DNA from: Mycoplasmatota bacterium
GTDB lineage: Bacteria > Bacillota_I > Bacilli_A > Haloplasmatales > Haloplasmataceae
Length of the DNA stretch: 64,000 nucleotides
Direction of reading: 5' to 3'
Assembly (NCBI GenBank): GCA_018394295.1
Contig: CP074573.1
Span: 620,001 to 684,000 of the forward strand
Shown here: piece by piece, positions 1 to 13,857 of the stretch
How positions within the stretch are numbered: the stretch's first letter is position 1
Layout: each line of letters begins with the position of its first letter
The notes under the pieces: model-generated
What the model was told of the DNA's origin: nothing
The model's database searches: none
The model's input: the letters and a program-made list of their open reading frames with translations, nothing else
Made by a program: the position numbers and the translations under genes

Positions 1-105
1 TCGTTCAAGGAAATGTTTTTTGTTGTCATTCAACTTGGGGCTATTTTAGCGGTTGTAGTGATGTTTTGGAACAAGATGTTTCCGTTCCAGTTCAAAGATT
101 CAATA
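1..105 (+). pseudogene. uppP: undecaprenyl-diphosphatase fragment (cut 3' end)
   Basis: Reading frame 1 gives a stretch matching the conserved early part of UppP/BacA (key segment VIQLGAILAVV followed by FWNKMFPFQ). UppP is the membrane enzyme that dephosphorylates undecaprenyl diphosphate to recycle the cell-wall lipid carrier. The 5' end lies outside the window. From about base 100 the frame runs into the end of a Tn3-type transposase remnant and stops at 148-150, after only about 50 codons in the window, where an intact gene would need some 200 more. The gene is therefore cut by the mobile-element debris next to it. The identification rests on a short but characteristic motif. Confidence 0.7.
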
Positions 106-722
106 TCTTTTCTTGTACTGGTATACCATCATTTATTAACTTTCTTATAGCATCACTTATGTCAATTACGTTATGTAGTATTACTGTATTTGCCAGTAAA
201 TCATTGTATTTTATAATTTTACTTTGTTCTTCCGGATCATTTTCACACATGATGCCTTCACCTCCAAAGAAGAACCATTTTGAAAATCCAATATAGGCTT
301 CTGTCTTCTTAGTATCTTCAGTTATCTTTTCTCTTAATTGAAGGTTTGATATAAATTCTAATAGATATATAGTTCTTATAACATTGCCGAGTTCTCTAAA
401 TACCTGAAATAACTTGTTTTTTCTATTGTAGTTATTTAGCTTTCTAAGAAGTGTTGAAGGAAGAATTTTACCTAGCTTTATGGATAAAATAACTTGAAAT
501 AAGTCTTCATAATGTGTTTCTATAAGATTCCAATTGATTGCATCCTTGAACAAGACTTCTATATAATTATATGTCAGGCTATTATCAGCTTTATAAAATT
601 TCAATTCTTACCACTTTCTAATTCGAGGCATAAATTCTATCCCTAACAGGTATGTTAGTGCAAATACTGGTGTAGACTGTCCTTGGGTGTCTGCGTGAAT
701 TTTATCAGGTTGGATATTTGAT
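92..722 (-). pseudogene. tnpA: Tn3-family transposase C-terminal remnant
   Basis: Read leftwards, the frame has landmarks of the Tn3-family DDE transposase C-terminus: IQPDKIHADTQGQS, then LLGIEFMPRIRKW, then FRELGNVIRTIYLLEF, FSKWFFFGGEG and NDPEEQ..IKYNDL. A TAA sits between RKW and ELKF, near base 606, where intact relatives read through this conserved segment. The open part is 92-604 (170 residues). The N-terminal two thirds, the resolvase and the terminal repeats are missing. It abuts uppP on one side and an Rhs-like remnant on the other, so it is an old, dead insertion. Confidence 0.85.
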
Positions 723-2361: not shown

Positions 2362-2898
2362 ATGGTCGACCAAAATGTTACAAACCTTTTCAATGATATA
2401 TACGACTCCACAAATAGGAAGGTATTAATTTACATCACAACAAAATGTAATAATACTGCTGATATTAGCGATATTTTTCAGGAAACTTATATGGAACTTT
2501 ATTCTGTGTTGATAAAACGAGGCGTGAACTATATTAAAAACTATGAAGCATTTGTTTTGAAGATAGCGAAGCAAAAGATTTATCGTTATTATTCAATTCT
2601 TGATCGGTTGAAAATGATGGTTTCACTTAGTGAGAAAGATAAAGCGTTTAATATCACAGATTTGAAAGCTGATTCGTTTATGATAGAGGATACTATATGT
2701 GAAAAAGATTTAGTGGAACAAGTGAATGAGTTTCTTTCAAAAAAGAGTGAGGATGTAAAGAAGATATTTTATCTGTTTTACTATTTCAATTTATCCATAC
2801 GAGAGATTGCAAAGTTACTTCGTTTAAATGAGTCAAATGTCAAGAATAAACTATATCGGACACTTAAAGAGTTACGTGAAAGGTGGTCTATCAATTGA
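2362..2898 (+). CDS. ECF-type RNA polymerase sigma factor
   Basis: A 178-residue protein with the two-domain layout of sigma-70 ECF factors. Region 2 lies at about residues 10-75 (CNNTADISDIFQETYMELY corresponds to the 2.2 segment). Region 4 lies at about 120-175, with a helix-turn-helix reading LSIREIAKLLRLNESNVKNKL. A strong GGTGG site precedes the ATG. The stop overlaps the probable TTG start of the next gene, which encodes a one-helix membrane protein, the usual position of an anti-sigma factor. It probably responds to an envelope signal. The targets are unknown; the exported proteins immediately downstream are reasonable candidates. Confidence 0.85.
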   Translation: MVDQNVTNLFNDIYDSTNRKVLIYITTKCNNTADISDIFQETYMELYSVLIKRGVNYIKNYEAFVLKIAKQKIYRYYSILDRLKMMVSLSEKDKAFNITDLKADSFMIEDTICEKDLVEQVNEFLSKKSEDVKKIFYLFYYFNLSIREIAKLLRLNESNVKNKLYRTLKELRERWSIN

Positions 2899-3851
2899 AA
2901 GAAAAAGATATAATCACTAAAGCGGTTAGTATGAATATGCCAGATATTGAGTCTATAAAAGAGATATGCGTTAATCAAACAATAATGATTAATAAAGATA
3001 AATATCAAAAATGTATTTGGATAAAAAGATTAACGCCTATCGTATTTATATTATTATTTGTTTTTATATTAGTATTAAGTGGTGGTACCATAAATCATCG
3101 ATATAATCTTATCGCAACAACTACAGAAGAAATTTATATAGTACCTCATTGGGATGATTTGAGTATTGAAGAGAAATATGGTGAAATTGAGTATAACAAT
3201 TCTAGATATACATCTGCGATAAGTGAAATAAACAACTCCGAAATTGTTAATTTATTAGGGGAGACAACCGCAAGTGGTTATGATGTATATAATGACAAGG
3301 AGTATACAATAAATTGTTCAGTATATTCAATAAAATCAATCGCATCAAATGCTGTTGTTGCGGTTAAATTCGATGAATATGAAGGGTATTATTCTTATAT
3401 AAATAATAGTTATAATCCTGAAAGTCTTGGAAATCTAATAGATGATTTAAATTTGCATAAAAATCTTGGTTTTAATAAAATTTATTATAGTTATTGGAAA
3501 GATGGTATTTTAGAAAATGGTAACTATATTCAAATGGAATATACATTATCCGATACATCGGTGATTTGGGATATACTCCTATCTGATACTTCGCTTAAAA
3601 ATGAGGGTGATACATATTATGGTGCTACTAAAATGGGTATATCTATTGATGTGAAAAATGTCGGTCATAAAAATATTTCTCTTGCGGTTAATGATGCGGG
3701 TTATTTACAGACAAATATTCTTAATACAGGAAAAACATTTTTTATTGGAAAAGATAAAGTAGAGTACTTTATTGATTATGTTTTAACGAATGGTACTGGT
3801 ACAAGAATTCAAAGAGATTCAGAAACAGCTGATACAACCAAAAATGAATAA
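2895..3851 (+). CDS. membrane-anchored probable anti-sigma partner
   Basis: The start chosen is TTG 2895, eight bases after AGGTGG; an in-frame GTG at 2883 lies inside the ribosome site. About 50 cytoplasmic residues (KEKDIITKAVSMNMPDIESI) come first. One transmembrane segment follows at about residues 48-68 (LTPIVFILLFVFILVLSGG), then about 250 extracytoplasmic residues rich in Asn, Tyr and Ser without a family I recognise. Position and topology fit an anti-sigma factor with an external sensor domain, but no zinc-finger (ZAS) motif is visible. Translation is likely coupled to the sigma gene through the TTGA overlap. Confidence 0.6.
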   Translation: MKEKDIITKAVSMNMPDIESIKEICVNQTIMINKDKYQKCIWIKRLTPIVFILLFVFILVLSGGTINHRYNLIATTTEEIYIVPHWDDLSIEEKYGEIEYNNSRYTSAISEINNSEIVNLLGETTASGYDVYNDKEYTINCSVYSIKSIASNAVVAVKFDEYEGYYSYINNSYNPESLGNLIDDLNLHKNLGFNKIYYSYWKDGILENGNYIQMEYTLSDTSVIWDILLSDTSLKNEGDTYYGATKMGISIDVKNVGHKNISLAVNDAGYLQTNILNTGKTFFIGKDKVEYFIDYVLTNGTGTRIQRDSETADTTKNE

Positions 3852-3946: not shown

Positions 3947-4363
3947 ATGGATAAAATTGAAGAAACTAAAATTCAATTTTTAGGCTATTTTGTAAGAGAA
4001 ATGAATTTTTTAAGAAATGATAACTTTAAGAGTGAAAAAATTAACTTGAATATGAAATTTTCTAAAAACACAACTTATTTAGAAAATAATAAAGTTAAAC
4101 TAAATGTAAATGCGAAGTTATTTGAAGATGCAGTAACAAAGAACTATCCTTTTAGTTTATCCTTAGTTGTTACGGGTGTGTTTCAATACAATCATATCAA
4201 TATAGATGAAGATAAGAAGAGAGAGATGTTAGAACAAAAATTATTAGATATTCTTTATCCTTATATAAGATCAATTGTATCAACAATCACCATGACTTCT
4301 AATTTACCACCATTATATCTGCCAACTTTAAATATTAATCAATTTATTAGTGTTAATAAATAA
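3947..4363 (+). CDS. SecB-like protein
   Basis: A 138-residue protein starting at ATG 3947 behind GGAGGGAAGG. The middle reads YPFSLSLVVTGVFQYNHI, the beta-strand pattern typical of SecB and SecB-like chaperones. The C-terminal part LLDILYPYIRSIVSTIT..SNLPPLYLPTLNI resembles SecB's ending, where the helix is followed by a P-x-L-P-P-x-N-like segment. SecB proteins hold unfolded precursors for export, and orphan SecB-like proteins also serve as chaperones for toxin-antitoxin pairs. No such pair is next to it here. It has its own terminator, and a secreted-protein operon follows. The family call is by pattern only. Confidence 0.5.
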   Translation: MDKIEETKIQFLGYFVREMNFLRNDNFKSEKINLNMKFSKNTTYLENNKVKLNVNAKLFEDAVTKNYPFSLSLVVTGVFQYNHINIDEDKKREMLEQKLLDILYPYIRSIVSTITMTSNLPPLYLPTLNINQFISVNK

Positions 4364-4365
4364 AG

Positions 4366-4393
4366 ATGACAGCTCGTATGAGTTGTCTTTTTT
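4366..4393 (+). terminator. Rho-independent terminator
   Basis: GACAGCTC pairs with GAGTTGTC around a four-base loop, followed by six T. It closes the SecB-like gene. Confidence 0.75.
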
Positions 4394-4484
4394 ACTTGGG
4401 TAAAGTTAAGGAAATTATTTTGATATTAGAAATATCTTGAAGATTGTCAAATTATGGTATATTATGTAGAAAATAAGAGGTGAA

Positions 4485-7400
4485 ATGATGAAAAAATTTA
4501 TAGCACTATTATTTAACATTTTAGTTTTAGTTATTATTTTCAACTTGTTTTTGTGTAGTAAAGTTAATGCTCAGATTATTAGCGATAATCATATACTTGG
4601 ACAAGTAAATAATATGAAATTAGAATATATAAATGATAATTCAGAGTATTTATTTGTATCAACTAATTCTGGTATCTACTTAATAAATCCTGAAACTTTT
4701 AAAGTAGAGAAGTATATTAAAATTGAAGGAGATATTTCAGAATTCTTTTTAATTAATAATATTGAAGATTCTAAAAGTCCAAATAAAGATCTAGTAATTT
4801 TTATTGATGACGATAATTTACCAAGTGTTATCGTTTATAGTATGGATTCATTAGAAAAAATTTGGTCATTCACTGCGATTACGACAGGATATAATAATGA
4901 AAGTATTAAAATTGAAAAGAAAATGCCTATTTTTGATTATGATCTAAATGAAGATAGCATATTACTAGTTTCAGGATATAATTTGTATAGTCTTAACATA
5001 AAAACAGGAAAACAAAACTGGGTTTATAAACATGAAGACAATATTTGGGCTGTATCTTATATGAGTGATATTAATAGTGATAATAAAGATGATATCGCAA
5101 TCAGTGTACAACCGTCTAATGTAATTGGTCTTAATGGAAAAGATGGAGAAAAACTATGGGAAAAAAAGATTGCGAAATCATATAAAGTAAAAAGAAATGA
5201 TAAAGTTATTGGAACTACTAAACTAAATATATGGGATTTAATGTATGTTAATTCAAATTTGATTGCTACTGGGGAAGATGGCTATCTCTATCAAGTAAAT
5301 CCTAATAATGGTCAGATATTAAAAGAGAAGAGTATTTTAGAAAATATACCAAATATTTTAGCGTTTCAAATATATTTAGAAGGAAATAAAGCCAAAGATT
5401 ATAGTGAATTAGTAACTAATGGTAAAAGTGCATATCAAATTATCAATTCAAAAAAAGTGAATGATAGTGATATATTAGTTACAATATTTGAAAACAATCA
5501 ATATGCTAATTATAGTGGGCTAACTCCAGAAATGTATTTAGTTGATGGAAAAACATTAGACATCATTTGGCAAGAAGAATATAGCGGGAAGCAATTACTG
5601 GATATTAATTATTATAATAATGGATCTATAAGTTTTTTTGATGGAAAAAAAATCAATATTTTTAGTATTAATAATCATAATAATGTTAAAGAAATTAATT
5701 TAGGAAGTAACTCAAATAAAGAAAGTAATCCTATATATTCAATATTAAAAAATGATACATTGATTGTAAGTGATCATGATATAAGTAAACTTGATATTAG
5801 TGATAATACTAATCCAAGTGTTGTAAATAAAATTACTAGTTTTAATGGATATGATACGATAGTTAATAATGATTATATTTATAAACTCTATTATCAATAT
5901 GATATTAATAATAGAGTAATAAAAAATTACAGTGCAGTTGAATGTACAGATAAAGTAGGGAATGTAATTTGGAAATATAATTTAGATAACATAGATGATT
6001 ATTTTAATTTTTATTTAATTAATGATGGATTTATTTTCATTACTAATAAATATGAATTATATAAGATTAATTATACAGATAAATTAACAATTGAAACTTA
6101 TCAGTTACCAAGTGATATAGAAAATCAACCAAAAGACTATGATTATAATAAAATACATGCTTTAACAACTTGCTCGGATTTTAATAATGATAATACATTG
6201 GATCTATTAATCGTTTTAGAAAATGGTAATTTCTTTATTTTAAATAGTAAAGATTTTAATGATGTAATAATAAAGGATAATTTAAATTCCATTATTAACT
6301 TAGAAAATCAATGGTTTTCCTATGCATTTCCTATCTTTAATGAAAATGAAAAAAAATTATATGTTATGAGTGAAAATAAAATTGAAATCCTCTCATTTGA
6401 TGATCAATTGACTACTTCAATAGAAAAAGAAGTTTCTTTAGAAAATTTTAATTTCTGGAATGATGGTCAAAGTATAAAAAACAATATTGATTTTGATAAT
6501 GATGGGTATAAAGATTTTGTTTTAAGAATAAATAATAATGATTTTAATGAAGCATTAATATTATATAGCGATGGGACAATTGGAAAAATTAATATAGGAT
6601 GGGATTTTACATTGTACCCTACTTATATAGACTTAAATGATGATAATAAATTTGAAATAATAGTTACTAGTAGTCAAGAAGATGGTGAAGGGAATTGGCA
6701 AAGTGTTTGTAAAATTGTCGACCCATATACAAGTATTAATGAAGAAGATAATGTATTATTTCATAAAGTCTTTTATGAAGGAAATGAAATTACAAGTAAT
6801 TCAAAATATAAACCATTAGAAATAGTAGATGATATAACAGGTGATGGAATAAAAGATGTTGTTGTTTTAGTAGATAGATGGGGTGATAATTACTTTCAAG
6901 TTTATAATGTTAATGATGATACAAAAGTTGTTAAAGTAATTCCTATAAGTGTTCGATTTACTGAAAGGGAGGAGATGAAAGATTCTAAAATTGGAGCACC
7001 TGGTGCTTTTATAGATACTTTTACATATGACGATAATCAATTTATGTTTTTAACTTTTAATCAAAATGAAAATATGGTTACAAGTATGTTTAACATAAAT
7101 GATTTTTACGATACTCAAAATCTATTAAATATAAATGGTAGAATTTTAAATTATTATATTGAAGATAGTTTTGTTTTATATAATTTATTTAATAAGAAAA
7201 ATGAAGAAAATTTTATATCAAATACTTTGGATCTAAATTCTAAAATTAAAATAAATATTGATGAAAATACGGTATATAAACAATCTAATATAAACATAAA
7301 TTGGGATAAAGATATTAGTGCTGTTTTTTACAGAATATATGTTGATAATAGATTAGTTGAAATTACATCCAAAAATGAAGTGAATGTTTTTTTGAAAGAT

Positions 7401-7586
7401 GGCTTAAATAATGTAGGAATTGGGTCGGTTTTAGAAAATGGAACTGAGTTAATCACGAATTTCCATGTTAAAGTTGATTTAGATAATTCAAATAATTATA
7501 TGTTTTATTTGTATTCAGTATCATCCTTATTTGTTGTATTTGTGCTTCCAGTTAAATTCTTTAGATATAGAAAGAGGGGGCATTAA
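4485..7586 (+). CDS. large exported beta-propeller (FG-GAP-like) membrane-anchored protein
   Basis: 1033 residues with a signal peptide (hydrophobic core about residues 7-24, likely cut after KVNA) and a single C-terminal transmembrane segment (about 1003-1023) ending in a basic tail, RYRKRGH. Between them are PQQ/WD-type blade repeats (for example LLVSGYNLYSLNIKTGKQNWVY). At least five Asp-rich loops of the DxNxDNxxD or DxDxDGxxD kind lie near residues 195, 565, 669, 716 and 783 and are typical of calcium-binding FG-GAP repeats. The protein should fold as one or more propellers outside the cell, tethered to the membrane. The next gene, an ABC ATPase, starts one base after its stop, so the propeller is probably the sensor or partner of that exporter. 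No catalytic motif is visible. Confidence 0.8.
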   Translation: MMKKFIALLFNILVLVIIFNLFLCSKVNAQIISDNHILGQVNNMKLEYINDNSEYLFVSTNSGIYLINPETFKVEKYIKIEGDISEFFLINNIEDSKSPNKDLVIFIDDDNLPSVIVYSMDSLEKIWSFTAITTGYNNESIKIEKKMPIFDYDLNEDSILLVSGYNLYSLNIKTGKQNWVYKHEDNIWAVSYMSDINSDNKDDIAISVQPSNVIGLNGKDGEKLWEKKIAKSYKVKRNDKVIGTTKLNIWDLMYVNSNLIATGEDGYLYQVNPNNGQILKEKSILENIPNILAFQIYLEGNKAKDYSELVTNGKSAYQIINSKKVNDSDILVTIFENNQYANYSGLTPEMYLVDGKTLDIIWQEEYSGKQLLDINYYNNGSISFFDGKKINIFSINNHNNVKEINLGSNSNKESNPIYSILKNDTLIVSDHDISKLDISDNTNPSVVNKITSFNGYDTIVNNDYIYKLYYQYDINNRVIKNYSAVECTDKVGNVIWKYNLDNIDDYFNFYLINDGFIFITNKYELYKINYTDKLTIETYQLPSDIENQPKDYDYNKIHALTTCSDFNNDNTLDLLIVLENGNFFILNSKDFNDVIIKDNLNSIINLENQWFSYAFPIFNENEKKLYVMSENKIEILSFDDQLTTSIEKEVSLENFNFWNDGQSIKNNIDFDNDGYKDFVLRINNNDFNEALILYSDGTIGKINIGWDFTLYPTYIDLNDDNKFEIIVTSSQEDGEGNWQSVCKIVDPYTSINEEDNVLFHKVFYEGNEITSNSKYKPLEIVDDITGDGIKDVVVLVDRWGDNYFQVYNVNDDTKVVKVIPISVRFTEREEMKDSKIGAPGAFIDTFTYDDNQFMFLTFNQNENMVTSMFNINDFYDTQNLLNINGRILNYYIEDSFVLYNLFNKKNEENFISNTLDLNSKIKINIDENTVYKQSNININWDKDISAVFYRIYVDNRLVEITSKNEVNVFLKDGLNNVGIGSVLENGTELITNFHVKVDLDNSNNYMFYLYSVSSLFVVFVLPVKFFRYRKRGH

Positions 7587-7587
7587 T

Positions 7588-8532
7588 ATGATTGAATACA
7601 TAATTCAAACCAAAAAATTAACTAAAAAATTTGGGAACTTTGTTGCTGTTAAAGATTTAAATTTAAAAATATCAAAAAATAAAATTCATGGATTTATAGG
7701 TCCCAATGGCGCTGGAAAAACAACAACAATTAAAATGTTAACTGGAGCAATTTATCCAAGTCAAGGTATTGGATTGATTGATAAATATGGAATTGGAACT
7801 AAAAGAGGACGTTCTCTAATAGGCTATGCACCTGCAGAATCCTTGTTTTATGATAATATGACAACGATTGAATATTTAGTGTACATTGGACAAATAAAAG
7901 GATTAAGAAGAAGAAAAGCAATTAATAAAGCATATGATTTAATTGATTATTTTGATTTAAATGATGCTATTAACAGGAAACCAATAACATTTTCATCAGG
8001 TATGAAGAAGAAAGTAACGGTTGCTCAAGCTTTAATAAATGATCCTAAAGTATTGATACTTGATGAACCAACCGCAAATTTAGACCCAACGGCAAGAATT
8101 CAAATAATAGATATACTTAGAAAATTAATTAGTGAAAATGATCTTAGTATATTCATTAGTTCACATATTTTATCTGAATTAGAAACTTTAGTTGATGAGG
8201 TTACATTAATTCGTAAAGGTGAAATTGTTTTAAGTGGTAACTTAAATACTGTAAAAAATAAATTTAATAAAGGTCAATATACAATAGATACATCTAATAA
8301 TAAGGTATTTAAATATTATTTAGATAAGTATTGTCATTCATTTATTAATTCTATTGAAGAAAATGATAAAGGATATGTCATTGTAAATGTTGATAATGTG
8401 AATAAATATAAGTTAGAAAGTGTAGTTCCTCCGATATTATCAAATTATAAAATACGTTTATTAAAGTTTAATCAAGAAGAAATCTCACTTGATGAAATAT
8501 ATAAAAATATTTATGACCAAAAAAATAAATAG
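7588..8532 (+). CDS. ABC transporter ATP-binding protein
   Basis: 314 residues from ATG 7588, preceded by AGAGGGGG. An earlier in-frame start lies inside the preceding gene. Walker A is GPNGAGKTT near residue 38, the signature region is SSGMKKKVTVAQAL, Walker B is VLILDEPTANLDP, and the H-loop sits in SSHILSE. A C-terminal extension of about 90 residues is typical of ABC-2 exporters of the CcmA/NatA type. It pairs with the permease six bases downstream. The substrate is unknown; its fixed coupling to an exported beta-propeller protein is unusual. Confidence 0.92.
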   Translation: MIEYIIQTKKLTKKFGNFVAVKDLNLKISKNKIHGFIGPNGAGKTTTIKMLTGAIYPSQGIGLIDKYGIGTKRGRSLIGYAPAESLFYDNMTTIEYLVYIGQIKGLRRRKAINKAYDLIDYFDLNDAINRKPITFSSGMKKKVTVAQALINDPKVLILDEPTANLDPTARIQIIDILRKLISENDLSIFISSHILSELETLVDEVTLIRKGEIVLSGNLNTVKNKFNKGQYTIDTSNNKVFKYYLDKYCHSFINSIEENDKGYVIVNVDNVNKYKLESVVPPILSNYKIRLLKFNQEEISLDEIYKNIYDQKNK

Positions 8533-8538
8533 GAGGAA

Positions 8539-9468
8539 ATGATGACAATTTTTATTAATACATTTAGAAGCTTACTAAAATGGAAATCTACACTTATTTT
8601 TATCGTAATAATGTCAATATTACCTATTATATTAGGGTTTGTTTTAAAAAATGAGATATATGGTAAAGATATGGCTTTTCAATCTCAATTAGATTTTACA
8701 ATAGGAATATATTATATATTAGTTTTTATGTGGGGGTTAGGAATACCATTTTTAATTGTTATAAGCGCAAAAGGGATTAGTTTAATAGCGAATGAAATTA
8801 CTGAGGGGACTTTAGGACTTTTAGTATCTATGAAAATATCACGATTTCAAATAGTATTATATAAGTGGTTAGCTTTATATTTTGTTGTTGTATTATTAGG
8901 AATATTAAGTATATATGAAAATATAAGTATCTTATCTTTGATTTCAGATATGGATAAAAATATTTTAAATAAATTAATTGAATCTATTCCTTTTTTAATT
9001 CAACATATATTGATAATGGGATTTATTTTTTCTAATATCGCAATCTTATTATCTTTATTAATTAAGTCAAAAATATTTGCGACCATTAGCATGACTTTCT
9101 TTATAGTGATTGTTTTTTTAATTATTCCATTATTTAAAAACTTTTTAACATCATATTATGAAAAATATAATCTATATCTCTATGATTTAAATTATCATTT
9201 TAGTTTAATATATTATCATTTTATTAGTAAAAGTAATATTAGTATTTCACCTACATTACAAACTGTGATGGGTACTTTTATTGGAATATTCGATATTAAG
9301 AAAATTACTGATAATGACATGTCTGTTTTATTAAAATCATCTCTTATGAAAGATGCAGCTATTTATTCATATCTTAGCTCAAATATTTTAATCTTATTTT
9401 GGTTATTTATAAGCATTATTTGTTTATTTTTATCAATGAGAATTCTGACAAAAAGGGATATTACATAA
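8539..9468 (+). CDS. ABC-2 type permease
   Basis: 309 residues with six predicted membrane spans: near residues 15-35, 55-80, 110-130, 155-175, 180-205 and 285-305. A cytoplasmic segment NEITEGTLGLLVSMKISR, after the second helix, matches the E(R/I)..GT...L...P.S pattern of ABC-2 permeases. The start is one of two adjacent ATGs after GGAGGAA. It forms an exporter with the preceding ATPase and is followed by a terminator, making a three-gene operon of propeller, ATPase and permease. Confidence 0.85.
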   Translation: MMTIFINTFRSLLKWKSTLIFIVIMSILPIILGFVLKNEIYGKDMAFQSQLDFTIGIYYILVFMWGLGIPFLIVISAKGISLIANEITEGTLGLLVSMKISRFQIVLYKWLALYFVVVLLGILSIYENISILSLISDMDKNILNKLIESIPFLIQHILIMGFIFSNIAILLSLLIKSKIFATISMTFFIVIVFLIIPLFKNFLTSYYEKYNLYLYDLNYHFSLIYYHFISKSNISISPTLQTVMGTFIGIFDIKKITDNDMSVLLKSSLMKDAAIYSYLSSNILILFWLFISIICLFLSMRILTKRDIT

Positions 9469-9614: not shown

Positions 9615-11505
9615 GGTTCTTTCCAAAGTTATTGGAATTTTATGTAAAAATATGTTATAATAAAGGTATCAAAAGTGGAGGTACCTTATGGACGAAATAA
9701 TTAAAATGCTTGACGAAAGTCTTGATTACATATCACATGAGTTAATTGATGATACTTTATACATTAATGTAAAATCAAATAAGGAGTCACTCCCATGTCC
9801 TCTATGCGGAGAGGAAAGTACAAAAGTACATTCTAGATACAATAAAAGCTTTCAGGACTTGCCATTACAGGGGAAAAAAGTTGTTATTGCACTAAAAAAT
9901 AAAAATATGTTCTGTACAAATCCAAATTGTAAGAAGTATACATTTTCAGAAAGCTTTGGTTTTATTGATCAAAAAGGCAAGAAAACGAAAAGATTAATTG
10001 ATGAAATTATACGAGTTTCTTTGACTCAAAGTTCTATATCGGCGGCAAAATACCTTTCAGATACGACCGTTGAAATCAAGAAAAGCTCAATTTGTAATTA
10101 CCTAAAAAAAAACTCTAGTCATAAACAAGAGTGAAGTTAAATATGTCTGTATAGATGACTTTGCGATAAAAAAGAGAAAATCATATGGAACAATTATGGT
10201 AGATATTGAAACTAAATGTATTATAGACTTATTAGAATCAAGAGATAGTATGAAAGTTACGGAATGGCTTACTACGTTTCCAAATATTAAACTCGTCTCA
10301 CGTGACGGCTCAACAACTTATCGCTCGGCTATTGCAGACGCTCATCCTAAAGCCACTCAGGTAAGTGATCGTTTTCATTTAGTTAAAAATTTAGTGAAAT
10401 CCATATCAAAGTATATGAAACGAATAATTACAGGTCGCATTGAAATACCACTCATATCACAAGATGGAAAGAAACGTTATGATTATCTTTGTGGTTTAAG
10501 CCGTAGAGAAAAAATTATTGAAGCCAGGCGTTTATATGCAAAGGAAGGAAATAGCTATGATACGATTGGAAATAAGTTAGGTGTTTCACCAACAACAGTT
10601 GCTAAATATATAAAAATGAAGGAAGAAGATATACCTAAAGAGAAAATAACTGTACGTGGAAAAGAGCACATCAACGCCATTTCGAAAGTGGAACAGAAAA
10701 GAAATAAGGTGCTAGAATTATGGAATAAAGGGTATACAAAAAGAGACATATCAAAGAAAACAGGATATAGCACTACAAGCATTGATACTTATCTCAAAGG
10801 TGAATTCAATCCTGTGCACGGACAATATGGAACAGGCCGAAATGGTAAACTAATGCCATTTAGAGATGAAGTTATTGATATGCGTGCTAATGGGATAACA
10901 TATAAGAAGATTACAGAACATATAAGGGAAAAAGGATACACAGGAACTGTAGATGGATTGAGATTTTTTATCTCAAAAGAAAAGCGTTTAGCTAAAGACA
11001 CCTCGTCTACAAAAGAACCTACAGAATTTTTAGACAAACGTTTGATCAATAAATTATTATATAAACCACTTGAAAAGGTAAAAGGGATCACGGAGAATCA
11101 ATTGAATGAATTTTTCAAAAAATATCCAGACATAAAAGTACTCTTTGAAAGACTAAAAGAATTCAGACTTTTGTTACTTGAAGATACAGAAGACAGTTTA
11201 AGTAAATGGATTAAACGGGCAAGAGAATCTGAAATTCAGGAAATTGATAGTTTCATTAATGGTATACAAAATGACCAAGATGCCGTAGAAAATGCCATAA
11301 AGTATAGTTATAATAACGGTTTAGCAGAAGGAAGTGTTAATAAACTAAAATCTATAAAAAGGATTATGTATGGCAGAAATAAATTTGATCTACTGAGGTC
11401 TAAAGTATTATTATTGGAATCATTAAAATGATAGATTTAAGTAAAGTAGGCAAATAAAGTCTACTATTAATTTTTACTATAAATCCAATAACTTTGGAAA
11501 GAACC
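9615..11505 (+). mobile_element. ISL3-family insertion sequence
   Basis: A 1891-bp element with terminal inverted repeats of 22 identical bases starting GGTTCTTTCCAAAG. The 8-bp direct repeat GTCAAATA flanks it at 9607-9614 and 11506-11513. The 8-bp duplication and the transposase type fit ISL3. It landed inside the left terminal repeat of the IS66 element, so it is the younger of the two. Its transposase is in two frames. Confidence 0.92.
9688..11431 (+). pseudogene. tnp: ISL3-family transposase, split by a frameshift
   Basis: The first part (9688-10134, 148 residues) has the N-terminal zinc-binding domain: CPLCGEE..KVHSRY, then CTNPNCKKYTFSE. The second part (frame open through 10196-11431) has the DDE core, starting YVCIDDFAIKKRKSYGTIMVDI with VSRDGSTTYRSAIADAHP and SDRFHLVKNL, plus an inserted helix-turn-helix region. 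The frames meet at a run of nine A (10104-10112), and the second is +1 relative to the first. ISL3 transposases are normally one frame of about 430-550 residues, so this is either an indel or a slippage site. Confidence 0.85.
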
Positions 11506-11513
11506 GTCAAATA
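11506..11513. repeat. ISL3 target-site duplication, right copy
   Basis: GTCAAATA, identical to 9607-9614. Removing the element and one copy restores a full IS66 terminal repeat. Confidence 0.88.
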
Positions 11514-11525
11514 TAACACACATAA

Positions 11526-11560
11526 AAAATCCTCATTTACTAAAATGAGGGATTTTTTTA
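11526..11560 (-). terminator. Rho-independent terminator of the IS66 operon
   Basis: On the minus strand AAATCCCTCATTTTA pairs with TAAATGAGGATTT and is followed by T residues. It lies at the stop of tnpC. Confidence 0.7.
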
Positions 11561-13113
11561 TGTGTTCAATTTACAATTTTTAGGGAGTTCATCTGACCAA
11601 GGTAATAATGTGTCTAGAATTTGTTCATCATTCAAATCTACATTTGGTAATCTATCAAATAAATAGGTTAGATATTCAATTGGTTTTATATTATTCTCCT
11701 TCGCGGTTTCAATAACACTATATATGATGGCACTTGATTTTGCTCCTTTAGGAGTATTAGAGAATAACCAGTTTTTTCTTCCAATCACGAAAGGTTTAAT
11801 TGATCTTTCAGCTCTATTATTATCAATTTCTAATCTCCCATCAAGTAGGTATCTTCCAAGATTATCCCATTGATTGAGACAATATTTAATAGCTTTACCA
11901 AGTTTACAATTAGGTAAAATTTCTTCTGCTTGATTTTTAAGCCATACTAAAAAATCATCCAAAATCTCTCGACTGTCATTATTTCTTATTTCATACTTTT
12001 CTTCAGGTGTTAAGTCCATTATTTTATGCTCAATTGAGTATAACTGATTACAGAAAGTTAATCCCTCTTTCGCAATGGACACATCATCACTCGATAGAGC
12101 TTTTACTATTTCGGCAAATCCTCTCCTCGCATGTGCCCAGCACCCAACAAGTATTACATTAGGAATATTATGATATCCAGTATATGCATCCACCTGAAGA
12201 TATCCTTTAAATCCTTCAAGAAACTCTTCGGGATGTTTACCTGCTCTTGTCGTCTGATAATCATATAAAACAATTGCTTTCCCCTCTGAACCTGTTCGAT
12301 AAAGCCACATGTAGGACTTTGATTTTGCTTCTCTCCCGTTTTCCTTCAATACTTGGGTAGTTGTCTCATCTGCATGTAGGATATCTTTTTGAAGTAATAA
12401 TTTATGCATACGATTATATAAGATTTCCAACCAAGCAGCACCTTTAATTACCCAGTTAGAAAGATTTTGTCGCGGTAAAAATATTCCCAATCTTTCAAAT
12501 TGTTTCTCTTGTCTGTAAAGAGGTAACCCATTTGTATATTTTTGATCCATTATATACGCAATTAAAGATGATGAAGCTAAGCTTCCTGGTATTGCAGGAT
12601 AAGGCATATTAGCTTTTATTATAGGCGTTCTAATTTCACTTTTCTCACATAATCGACAGGATACTATATGACGGATATGTTTCTTGATTTTTACTTTAGG
12701 CGGAATAACTACAATTTCAGTTCTTTCTTCAGTACTCATTTCATGAAGTAGAAAACCACATTGTGGACAATCTTTTTCTTCAGGATAATAATGTATTTCT
12801 TCAACAGGAAGAGTTTTTAAATAATCAGTACTTTTTTTCGTCCTTTTTTATTTCTAGTATAGGTAATTTTTTCAAGTTTAGGTTCTTCGCGATTTAAATT
12901 TGATTCCTTTTCAGCTTCATTAAATAATTCTAGACTTTGTTGATTAGGATCAATTTTCTCGCTAGAAGATCCAAAACGCTTTTGTTGATATAATTTAAAG
13001 AACTCTTCATAATTTTTCACTTTATTTTGAAGTTCTACTATTTTAGAATCTTGTGATGAGATATATTCAATTAATTCTTCTTTAGTTAGTTTATTTAAGT
13101 CTACTTTTTTCAT
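11558..13113 (-). pseudogene. tnpC: IS66 transposase TnpC, frameshifted
   Basis: The N-terminal part (12817-13113) has the leucine-rich helical start and the conserved QKRFGSSSEKI segment of IS66 transposases. The main part (11558-12739 plus the open frame upstream to about 12838) has the zinc-finger Cys pairs (CPQCGFLLHE and CRLCEKSEI), ILHADETTTQV, YTGYHNI..VGCWAHARR, RAERSIKPFVIGRKNWLFSNTPKGAKSS and the typical C-terminus. The two meet at seven T (12832-12838, seven A in the sense strand); one more A would join them. It is either a broken gene or a transcriptional slippage site. Confidence 0.88.
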
Positions 13114-13189
13114 TGCTTTTCTTACCTTTTTTCGATACTTTATTTTACCATAAAATGAGAAAAAAGTCTAATTATATAAAGAAAAGGGA

Positions 13190-13543
13190 CTATATAATCC
13201 CCCTTTGCTTAACCTCTTTAAAGGCCTTTCCATTACGTATTTCATAACCATCTAAAAACCAATAAAATTCTTTTAAAGACGAACTTGTAATCTCCTGTTC
13301 ACTTTTAGGCCAATTAAATTTACCACTTTCTAATCGTTTTTTATATATCCAAAAACCATTATAATCCCAATGTAAAATTTTTAAAATTTGTCTACTTTTA
13401 TTACAGAAAACAAATAAGTTATTTGAAAATGGATCTAAATCAAACTGTTTTTTTACAATAAGAGATAGTCCATCAATTGATTTTCTTAAATCAGTATATC
13501 CTGTCGCGAAATAAACTGTTTTTACATCCTTGAGTTTAATCAT
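13190..13543 (-). CDS. tnpB: IS66 accessory protein TnpB
   Basis: 117 residues with the hallmark TnpB pattern: VYFATGYTDLRKSIDGL, NNLFVFCNKSRQILKILHWD and GFWIYKKRLESGKFNWP. It is full-length for the family and required for IS66 transposition, though its exact role is unsettled. Its start overlaps the end of tnpA by ATGA, indicating translational coupling. Confidence 0.95.
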   Translation of the reverse strand: MIKLKDVKTVYFATGYTDLRKSIDGLSLIVKKQFDLDPFSNNLFVFCNKSRQILKILHWDYNGFWIYKKRLESGKFNWPKSEQEITSSSLKEFYWFLDGYEIRNGKAFKEVKQRGII

Positions 13544-13857
13544 AATTCTGATAACACCTTTACCACATCTTTTAAATGATTCCCATTGAACCCTGGTTCA
13601 ACCTTTATATTGCATTTTCCTATTTTAATCGTTATACATTTTTCTTCATTCATTTCAACCATTTCATGATTAACAGGAATGGGTATCCAATTAATTTCTT
13701 GTGCTTGATTTTCATTTTGATTATTCTTTTTAATCCAATATAGAAGTTGATGTAATTTATACCCATTTTCCCTACACCATTTTGATTTTGATAATCCACT
13801 TTTTTGATATTCTTCAATTCTTTCTTTCCATTCAGATCTTAACTTATTATAATTCAT
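13540..13857 (-). CDS. tnpA: IS66 accessory protein TnpA
   Basis: 105 residues with a helix-turn-helix at the N-terminus (LRSEWKERIEEYQKSGLSKSKWCREN), the family's W..R...Y..SG.S...WC motif. It starts at ATG 13857 behind TAGGAGGA and is the first gene of the IS66 operon. Confidence 0.93.
   Translation of the reverse strand: MNYNKLRSEWKERIEEYQKSGLSKSKWCRENGYKLHQLLYWIKKNNQNENQAQEINWIPIPVNHEMVEMNEEKCITIKIGKCNIKVEPGFNGNHLKDVVKVLSEL

Follow-up and report, generated by a model that had tools for sequence, protein, structure and literature searches.

A conserved gene triad encoding an exported multi-propeller protein, an ABC ATPase and a NosY-like permease in at least three bacterial families

The window analyzed here, a 64,000-nucleotide stretch of contig CP074573.1 (positions 620,001 to 684,000) from a Mycoplasmatota bacterium, carries three forward-strand genes coding for an extracytoplasmic multi-propeller subunit of 1033 residues (4485-7586), an ABC ATPase of 314 residues with a DrrA-like C-terminal domain (7588-8532), and a NosY-like ABC-2 permease of 309 residues with six predicted TM helices (8539-9468), separated by 1 base and then by 6 bases. 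The coordinates, lengths, and spacing given in an earlier sequence-only reading were rechecked against the window, and all agreed. Upstream lie an ECF sigma gene (2362-2898; Pfam sigma-70 region 4), its one-TM, anti-sigma-like partner without a Pfam match (2883-3851), and a SecB-like gene (3947-4363, + strand; Pfam SecB, 3e-10), at which the stretch described by that reading had started. Its operon of propeller, ATPase, and permease proved to be the true unit, but the start at the SecB-like gene did not hold, as an intrinsic-terminator-like hairpin with a T run (4368-4395, + strand) closes the SecB-like unit upstream of the propeller gene and marks the unit boundary. At the left end of the window (1-150; upstream continuation L023 7914-8150), the start of an uppP-like (undecaprenyl-diphosphatase) ORF stops after 78 codons and is possibly a truncated gene. 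Just 3′ of the triad, two insertion sequences, named by sequence reading, occupy 9688-13857: an ISL3-like transposase in two ORFs (9688-10134 and 10196-11431) and an IS66-like set (11558-13857), in which the large transposase seems to be split as well.

Both upstream neighbors had been proposed to serve the operon, the SecB-like protein as a helper in export of the propeller and the ECF sigma pair as a controller, and neither proposal survived comparison with relatives. The SecB-like gene was ruled out as a triad partner by its own terminator together with its absence or distant location in relatives; no copy occurs in the triad-bearing genomes G003, G005, and G006, and in G001 and G004 the gene and the triad are on different contigs. 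Its product matches the PADLOC model PD-T4-9_C (9e-15), which suggests, at the level of sequence, a chaperone of the defence or toxin-antitoxin type rather than an export SecB. The ECF pair was rejected as controller since it is not conserved beside the triad, and no homologue of the anti-sigma-like protein was found in the 12 relatives searched. Two other triads (L014 and L055) have an unrelated sigma-like gene no more than about 3 kb upstream, which their orthologues do not share.

The description of the first protein as an exported, tethered propeller with five Asp-rich loops was borne out by Pfam, sequence analysis, and fold matches. It begins with a predicted signal sequence (residues 1-30, ending KVNA/Q; 4485-4574, + strand; assigned by sequence reading rather than a dedicated predictor), continues with BamB/FG-GAP-type beta repeats (Pfam PQQ_2/BamB, 5e-7; FG-GAP, 2e-4) and a C-terminal domain, and ends in a C-terminal TM helix (residues about 1005-1026; 7497-7562, + strand) followed by the basic tail FRYRKRGH. 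The Asp-rich loops, all on the + strand, are DINSDNKDD (residues 195-203; 5067-5093), DFNNDNTLD (residues 565-573; 6177-6203), DFDNDGYKD (residues 669-677; 6489-6515), DLNDDNKFE (residues 716-724; 6630-6656), and DITGDGIKD (residues 783-791; 6831-6857), with D565 and D569 of the second loop, D669 of the third, and D716 and D720 of the fourth invariant in 28/28 homologues. The five motifs compare with 1.8 in shuffled sequence, a moderate excess in a D/N-rich protein, while the relatives have 5 to 9 motifs versus about 1 after shuffling. Presumably, these loops bind Ca2+.

No NCBIfam model spans the whole propeller, and the BamB equivalog TIGR03300 scored 21.3 bits, below its cut-off of 285.2. 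AlphaFold models were built from four sequences each; that of the propeller had a mean pLDDT of 50 and matched EMC1, DDB1, and BamB with low TM-scores, which supports assignment to the multi-propeller fold class, as a modeled property, rather than any interface. The window propeller thus has its repeat type and fold class in common with the BamB and EMC1 propellers, from which it differs in being tied to an ABC motor; the low TM-scores stem from the poor model. Among PDB sequences, the propeller profile best matched a haemolysin-related protein, followed by integrin alpha-V. These matches would suit an ordinary ABC-2 exporter that exports the propeller as its cargo or happens to share its operon with an unrelated adhesin of the cell surface, as adhesin-like Ca2+-loop propellers are common and surface genes often lie in operons with ABC-2 exporters. 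We consider this quite unlikely, however, because a signal sequence and a C-terminal anchor are part of the propeller itself, which is also paired with the permease, as described below.

The ATPase matched Pfam ABC_tran and DrrA1-3_C, and its motifs are intact (Walker A GPNGAGKT, signature FSSGM, Walker B LILDEP, and SSH), which makes a dead machine unlikely. It scored 209.1 bits against the DrrA subfamily model TIGR01188, below the curated cut-off of 312.45, and 123.8 bits against TIGR03864, the ATPase model for PedA1A2BC and related lanthanide-linked ABC systems, far under the cut-off of 302. When PDB sequences were searched with the ATPase profile, ABCA3/4/1 ranked best, and the single-domain ABC ATPase 4yer, PmtC, and NosF were also recovered. 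Triad ATPases form a single clade relative to other ABC ATPases from the same genomes (support 96/92); upon addition of the third family and Mollicute relatives, the clade support was 100/99, with the Mollicute sequences inside. The triad ATPases share common ancestry.

With an ABC ATPase of intact motifs and a six-TM ABC-2 permease, the features of the ABC-2 exporter superfamily are present. Pfam analysis of the permease pointed to ABC2_membrane_2 (PF12679); the window protein lies beneath the model cut-off, but 15/15 permeases of the triad permease alignment (A8) matched at E 0.01. A profile of these 15 permeases searched against PDB at E up to 1 gave NosY as its sole match, a weak one (8.5e-4). 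The permease model had a pLDDT of 54, and its best 11 PDB structure matches by Foldseek were all NosY of NosDFY; coming from a predicted model, they support the description NosY-like and no interface. The resemblance to NosY is therefore weak but concordant, profile and structure matches being in agreement. Two conserved motifs fall in the predicted TM5-TM6 outer loop: D216-L-N218-Y219 (9184-9195, + strand), whose D, N, and Y are invariant in the 15 aligned permeases and across the three families, and D258-x-D260 (9310-9318, + strand), invariant in 28/28 permeases.

To trace the triad across genomes, searches covered the window's own phylum. Single-protein searches of genome contigs gave no match, and an alignment search yielded three Haloplasmataceae members; profile A2 missed the third family, since such a search scores few candidates, and the ATPase profile recovered it, so that absence counts are lower bounds. 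In Haloplasmataceae and families f19 and f13, all of one class, all of the roughly 26 complete loci inspected kept the order propeller-ATPase-permease, with touching or overlapping genes and junctions of -50 to +41 bases. The incomplete loci are a draft genome in which the propeller frame is broken (G608) and two loci cut by contig ends (G002 and G584). The searches turned up no relatives on plasmids, and none in viruses that could be confirmed.

The "fixed triple" of the sequence-only reading is accordingly intact at all complete loci in three families. That reading had also named chance co-occurrence as an outcome of gene-neighbor analysis that would speak against it; in our analysis, all complete loci kept the triple. 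A chance or lineage-specific juxtaposition, with the SecB-like gene and sigma pair as equally good partners, might be imagined from the two insertion sequences just downstream, which indicate a mobile region. However, the triple is kept in three families with a single ATPase clade, and neither SecB nor sigma is conserved beside it; the neighbor analysis refutes this explanation, to which we assign a negligible probability.

Propeller and permease have diverged together. When 28 pairs were compared, the identity matrices for the two proteins correlated with a Pearson coefficient of 0.92 and a Spearman coefficient of 0.81, and 0/1000 permutations in a Mantel test reached as high a value, although this co-divergence comes partly from the shared ancestry of linked genes. 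Because linked genes are expected to correlate, an array in genome G006 is more telling. Its genes are ordered propeller-permease-propeller-permease-propeller-permease-propeller-ATPase-permease, giving four pairs and one ATPase. Copies 1 and 3 are 47% identical in the propeller and 52% in the permease, and copies 2 and 4 are 37% and 51% identical, respectively, compared with about 21-26% for the remaining combinations. As the 1/3 and 2/4 matches hold for both proteins, a two-pair unit has been duplicated, with only one ATPase present. By sequence reading, copies 1 and 3 have a lipobox-like motif in the signal sequence, and copies 2 and 4 lack one. The array fits a permease heterodimer that would carry two different propellers and use a common ATPase. 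This 1:1 relation and co-duplication of propeller and permease, together with the lack of an orphan propeller at any complete locus in the three families, argue against the propeller as mere cargo or adhesin.

The genes around the triad vary. The second triad copy in the window's genome, like its orthologues, neighbors ligA; triads of f19 lie beside dusB/hslO and those of f13 beside V-ATPase subunit D, and the G006 array sits between murD and ftsW in a murein/division cluster (L024 1065-19734, L025). Since these neighbors are unrelated between groups, the triad is a module that stands by itself. No fourth gene is common to the loci compared across groups, hence no substrate-binding protein gene belongs to the operon. 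In G003 (Inordinaticella fortuita), five mreB/mbl genes are clustered at L026 2767-10165, about 5 kb from the triad.

The position of the array between murD and ftsW, the mreB cluster about 5 kb from the G003 triad, and the lack of a cargo gene are what might be expected of a sensory or regulatory machine, in which the propeller senses and a BceAB- or FtsEX-like ABC pair relays the signal or drives cell wall enzymes without transport. NosDFY-type machines may moreover act through mechanical coupling. Nonetheless, the permease is ABC-2/NosY-like rather than a protein of the FtsX/MacB fold, the triad has no linked kinase or hydrolase, and the other loci (ligA, dusB, V-ATPase) are not cell wall loci, so we judge a sensory machine unlikely. 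The sequence-only reading had offered the propeller as either the substrate-facing part of the exporter or a sensor; we favor the view that the propeller forms the extracytoplasmic subunit of an ABC machine, to which the sensor stands as a rival.

That reading further stated that it knew of no such layout. Our literature search, of partial coverage, found no paper describing a propeller/ABC-2 triad of this kind, but two systems of like build exist. In PedA1A2BC, which functions in lanthanide-dependent growth, a YVTN propeller is combined with a binding protein and a pair of ATPase and permease (PMC6839425), and NosDFY delivers copper via NosD, NosF, and NosY (PMC13068155). Like NosDFY, the triad combines a single ATPase and a single ABC-2 permease with one large beta protein outside the cytoplasm; in addition, its permease matches NosY by profile and fold, and NosF is among the PDB relatives of its ATPase. 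It differs in the outer protein: NosD is a beta-helix, whereas the triad has a multi-propeller of the BamB/FG-GAP type that bears Ca-type loops and is anchored at its C-terminus; a Pfam scan of the window protein and ten relatives detected propeller families and no NosD (PF05048-type) match. Among the ORFs neighboring the triads, read at the loci, neither NosZ nor NosL was noticed. With PedA1A2BC, the triad has in common a beta-propeller, an ATP-binding protein, and a permease in one operon (PMC6839425), but the former has a YVTN propeller and a separate substrate-binding protein, while the triad consists of three genes. No match to TIGR03866 (PedA2) was obtained at E 1e-3 with any of 14 propeller members. 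The best reading of these comparisons is that the triad has a NosDFY architecture with a different outer protein and that the PedA1A2BC propeller is unrelated.

Metal handling as in these two systems, i.e., copper or lanthanide delivery, could accommodate the NosY-like permease and the invariant D-x-D in its outer loop, and PedA1A2BC provides the precedent of a propeller, ATPase, and permease supporting lanthanide-dependent growth (PMC6839425). Such a role seems improbable, as the NosD beta-helix family and a gene for a substrate-binding protein are both missing from the operon and no match of the propeller to TIGR03866 or NosD models was obtained. DrrAB-type ABC-2 exporters also have a DrrA-like ATPase with the DrrA1-3_C domain, but the window ATPase falls below the TIGR01188 cut-off and the triad has an obligate outer propeller. 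Lipid transporters of the ABCA group supply the best PDB sequences of the ATPase profile. ABCA proteins have large extracellular domains; in the triad, by contrast, the subunits are separate, and homology of the propeller to these domains is not in evidence.

The Mollicute members of the ATPase clade (L113, L114, L115, and L137) have a neighboring permease of 630-660 residues, and no propeller gene adjoins the ATPase in them. In the clearest cases, judged from hydropathy only, about 390 extra residues follow TM5 and precede the last TM helix. The TM5-TM6 site thus seems, from sequence features, to be used in two ways, as a loop on which a separate propeller docks or as the insertion point of an outer domain.

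Altogether, the results favor the view that the triad is probably a NosDFY-type tripartite ABC-2 machine with a multi-propeller where NosDFY has the beta-helix of NosD; we infer its physical contacts, stoichiometry, direction, and substrate as follows. The propeller would be exported by its own signal sequence and kept anchored by its C-terminal helix, and the membrane motor would comprise, as in the family, two ATPase and two permease copies. The propeller would sit over the permease outer TM5-TM6 loops, the site of the conserved D216-x-N-Y and D258-x-D motifs, where ATP-driven movement of the permease could be transmitted to it, and it may take a substrate from the permease or pass one to an outside partner. 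The preferred substrate class would be a lipid-like or cell-surface molecule or surface polymer; a common envelope component is suggested because no biosynthesis, cargo, or metal gene is linked.

A broader proposal, which we put forward tentatively and regard as possible but doubtful, is that the triad represents an undescribed class of ABC machine in Bacilli, whose motor drives a Ca2+-dependent surface multi-propeller for a general envelope component, with paired permeases and propellers in the division cluster of a Haloplasmataceae genome and, in Mollicutes, an inserted TM5-TM6 domain in place of the outer protein. A NosDFY-like triad would make the NosDFY architecture one case of a general plan rather than only a copper-specific assembly device, the plan being an ABC-2 motor combined with an outer beta protein that can be exchanged for another (a helix, a propeller, or an inserted domain). 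The natural swap at the TM5-TM6 loop would allow a direct test of how the motor is coupled to the outer protein.
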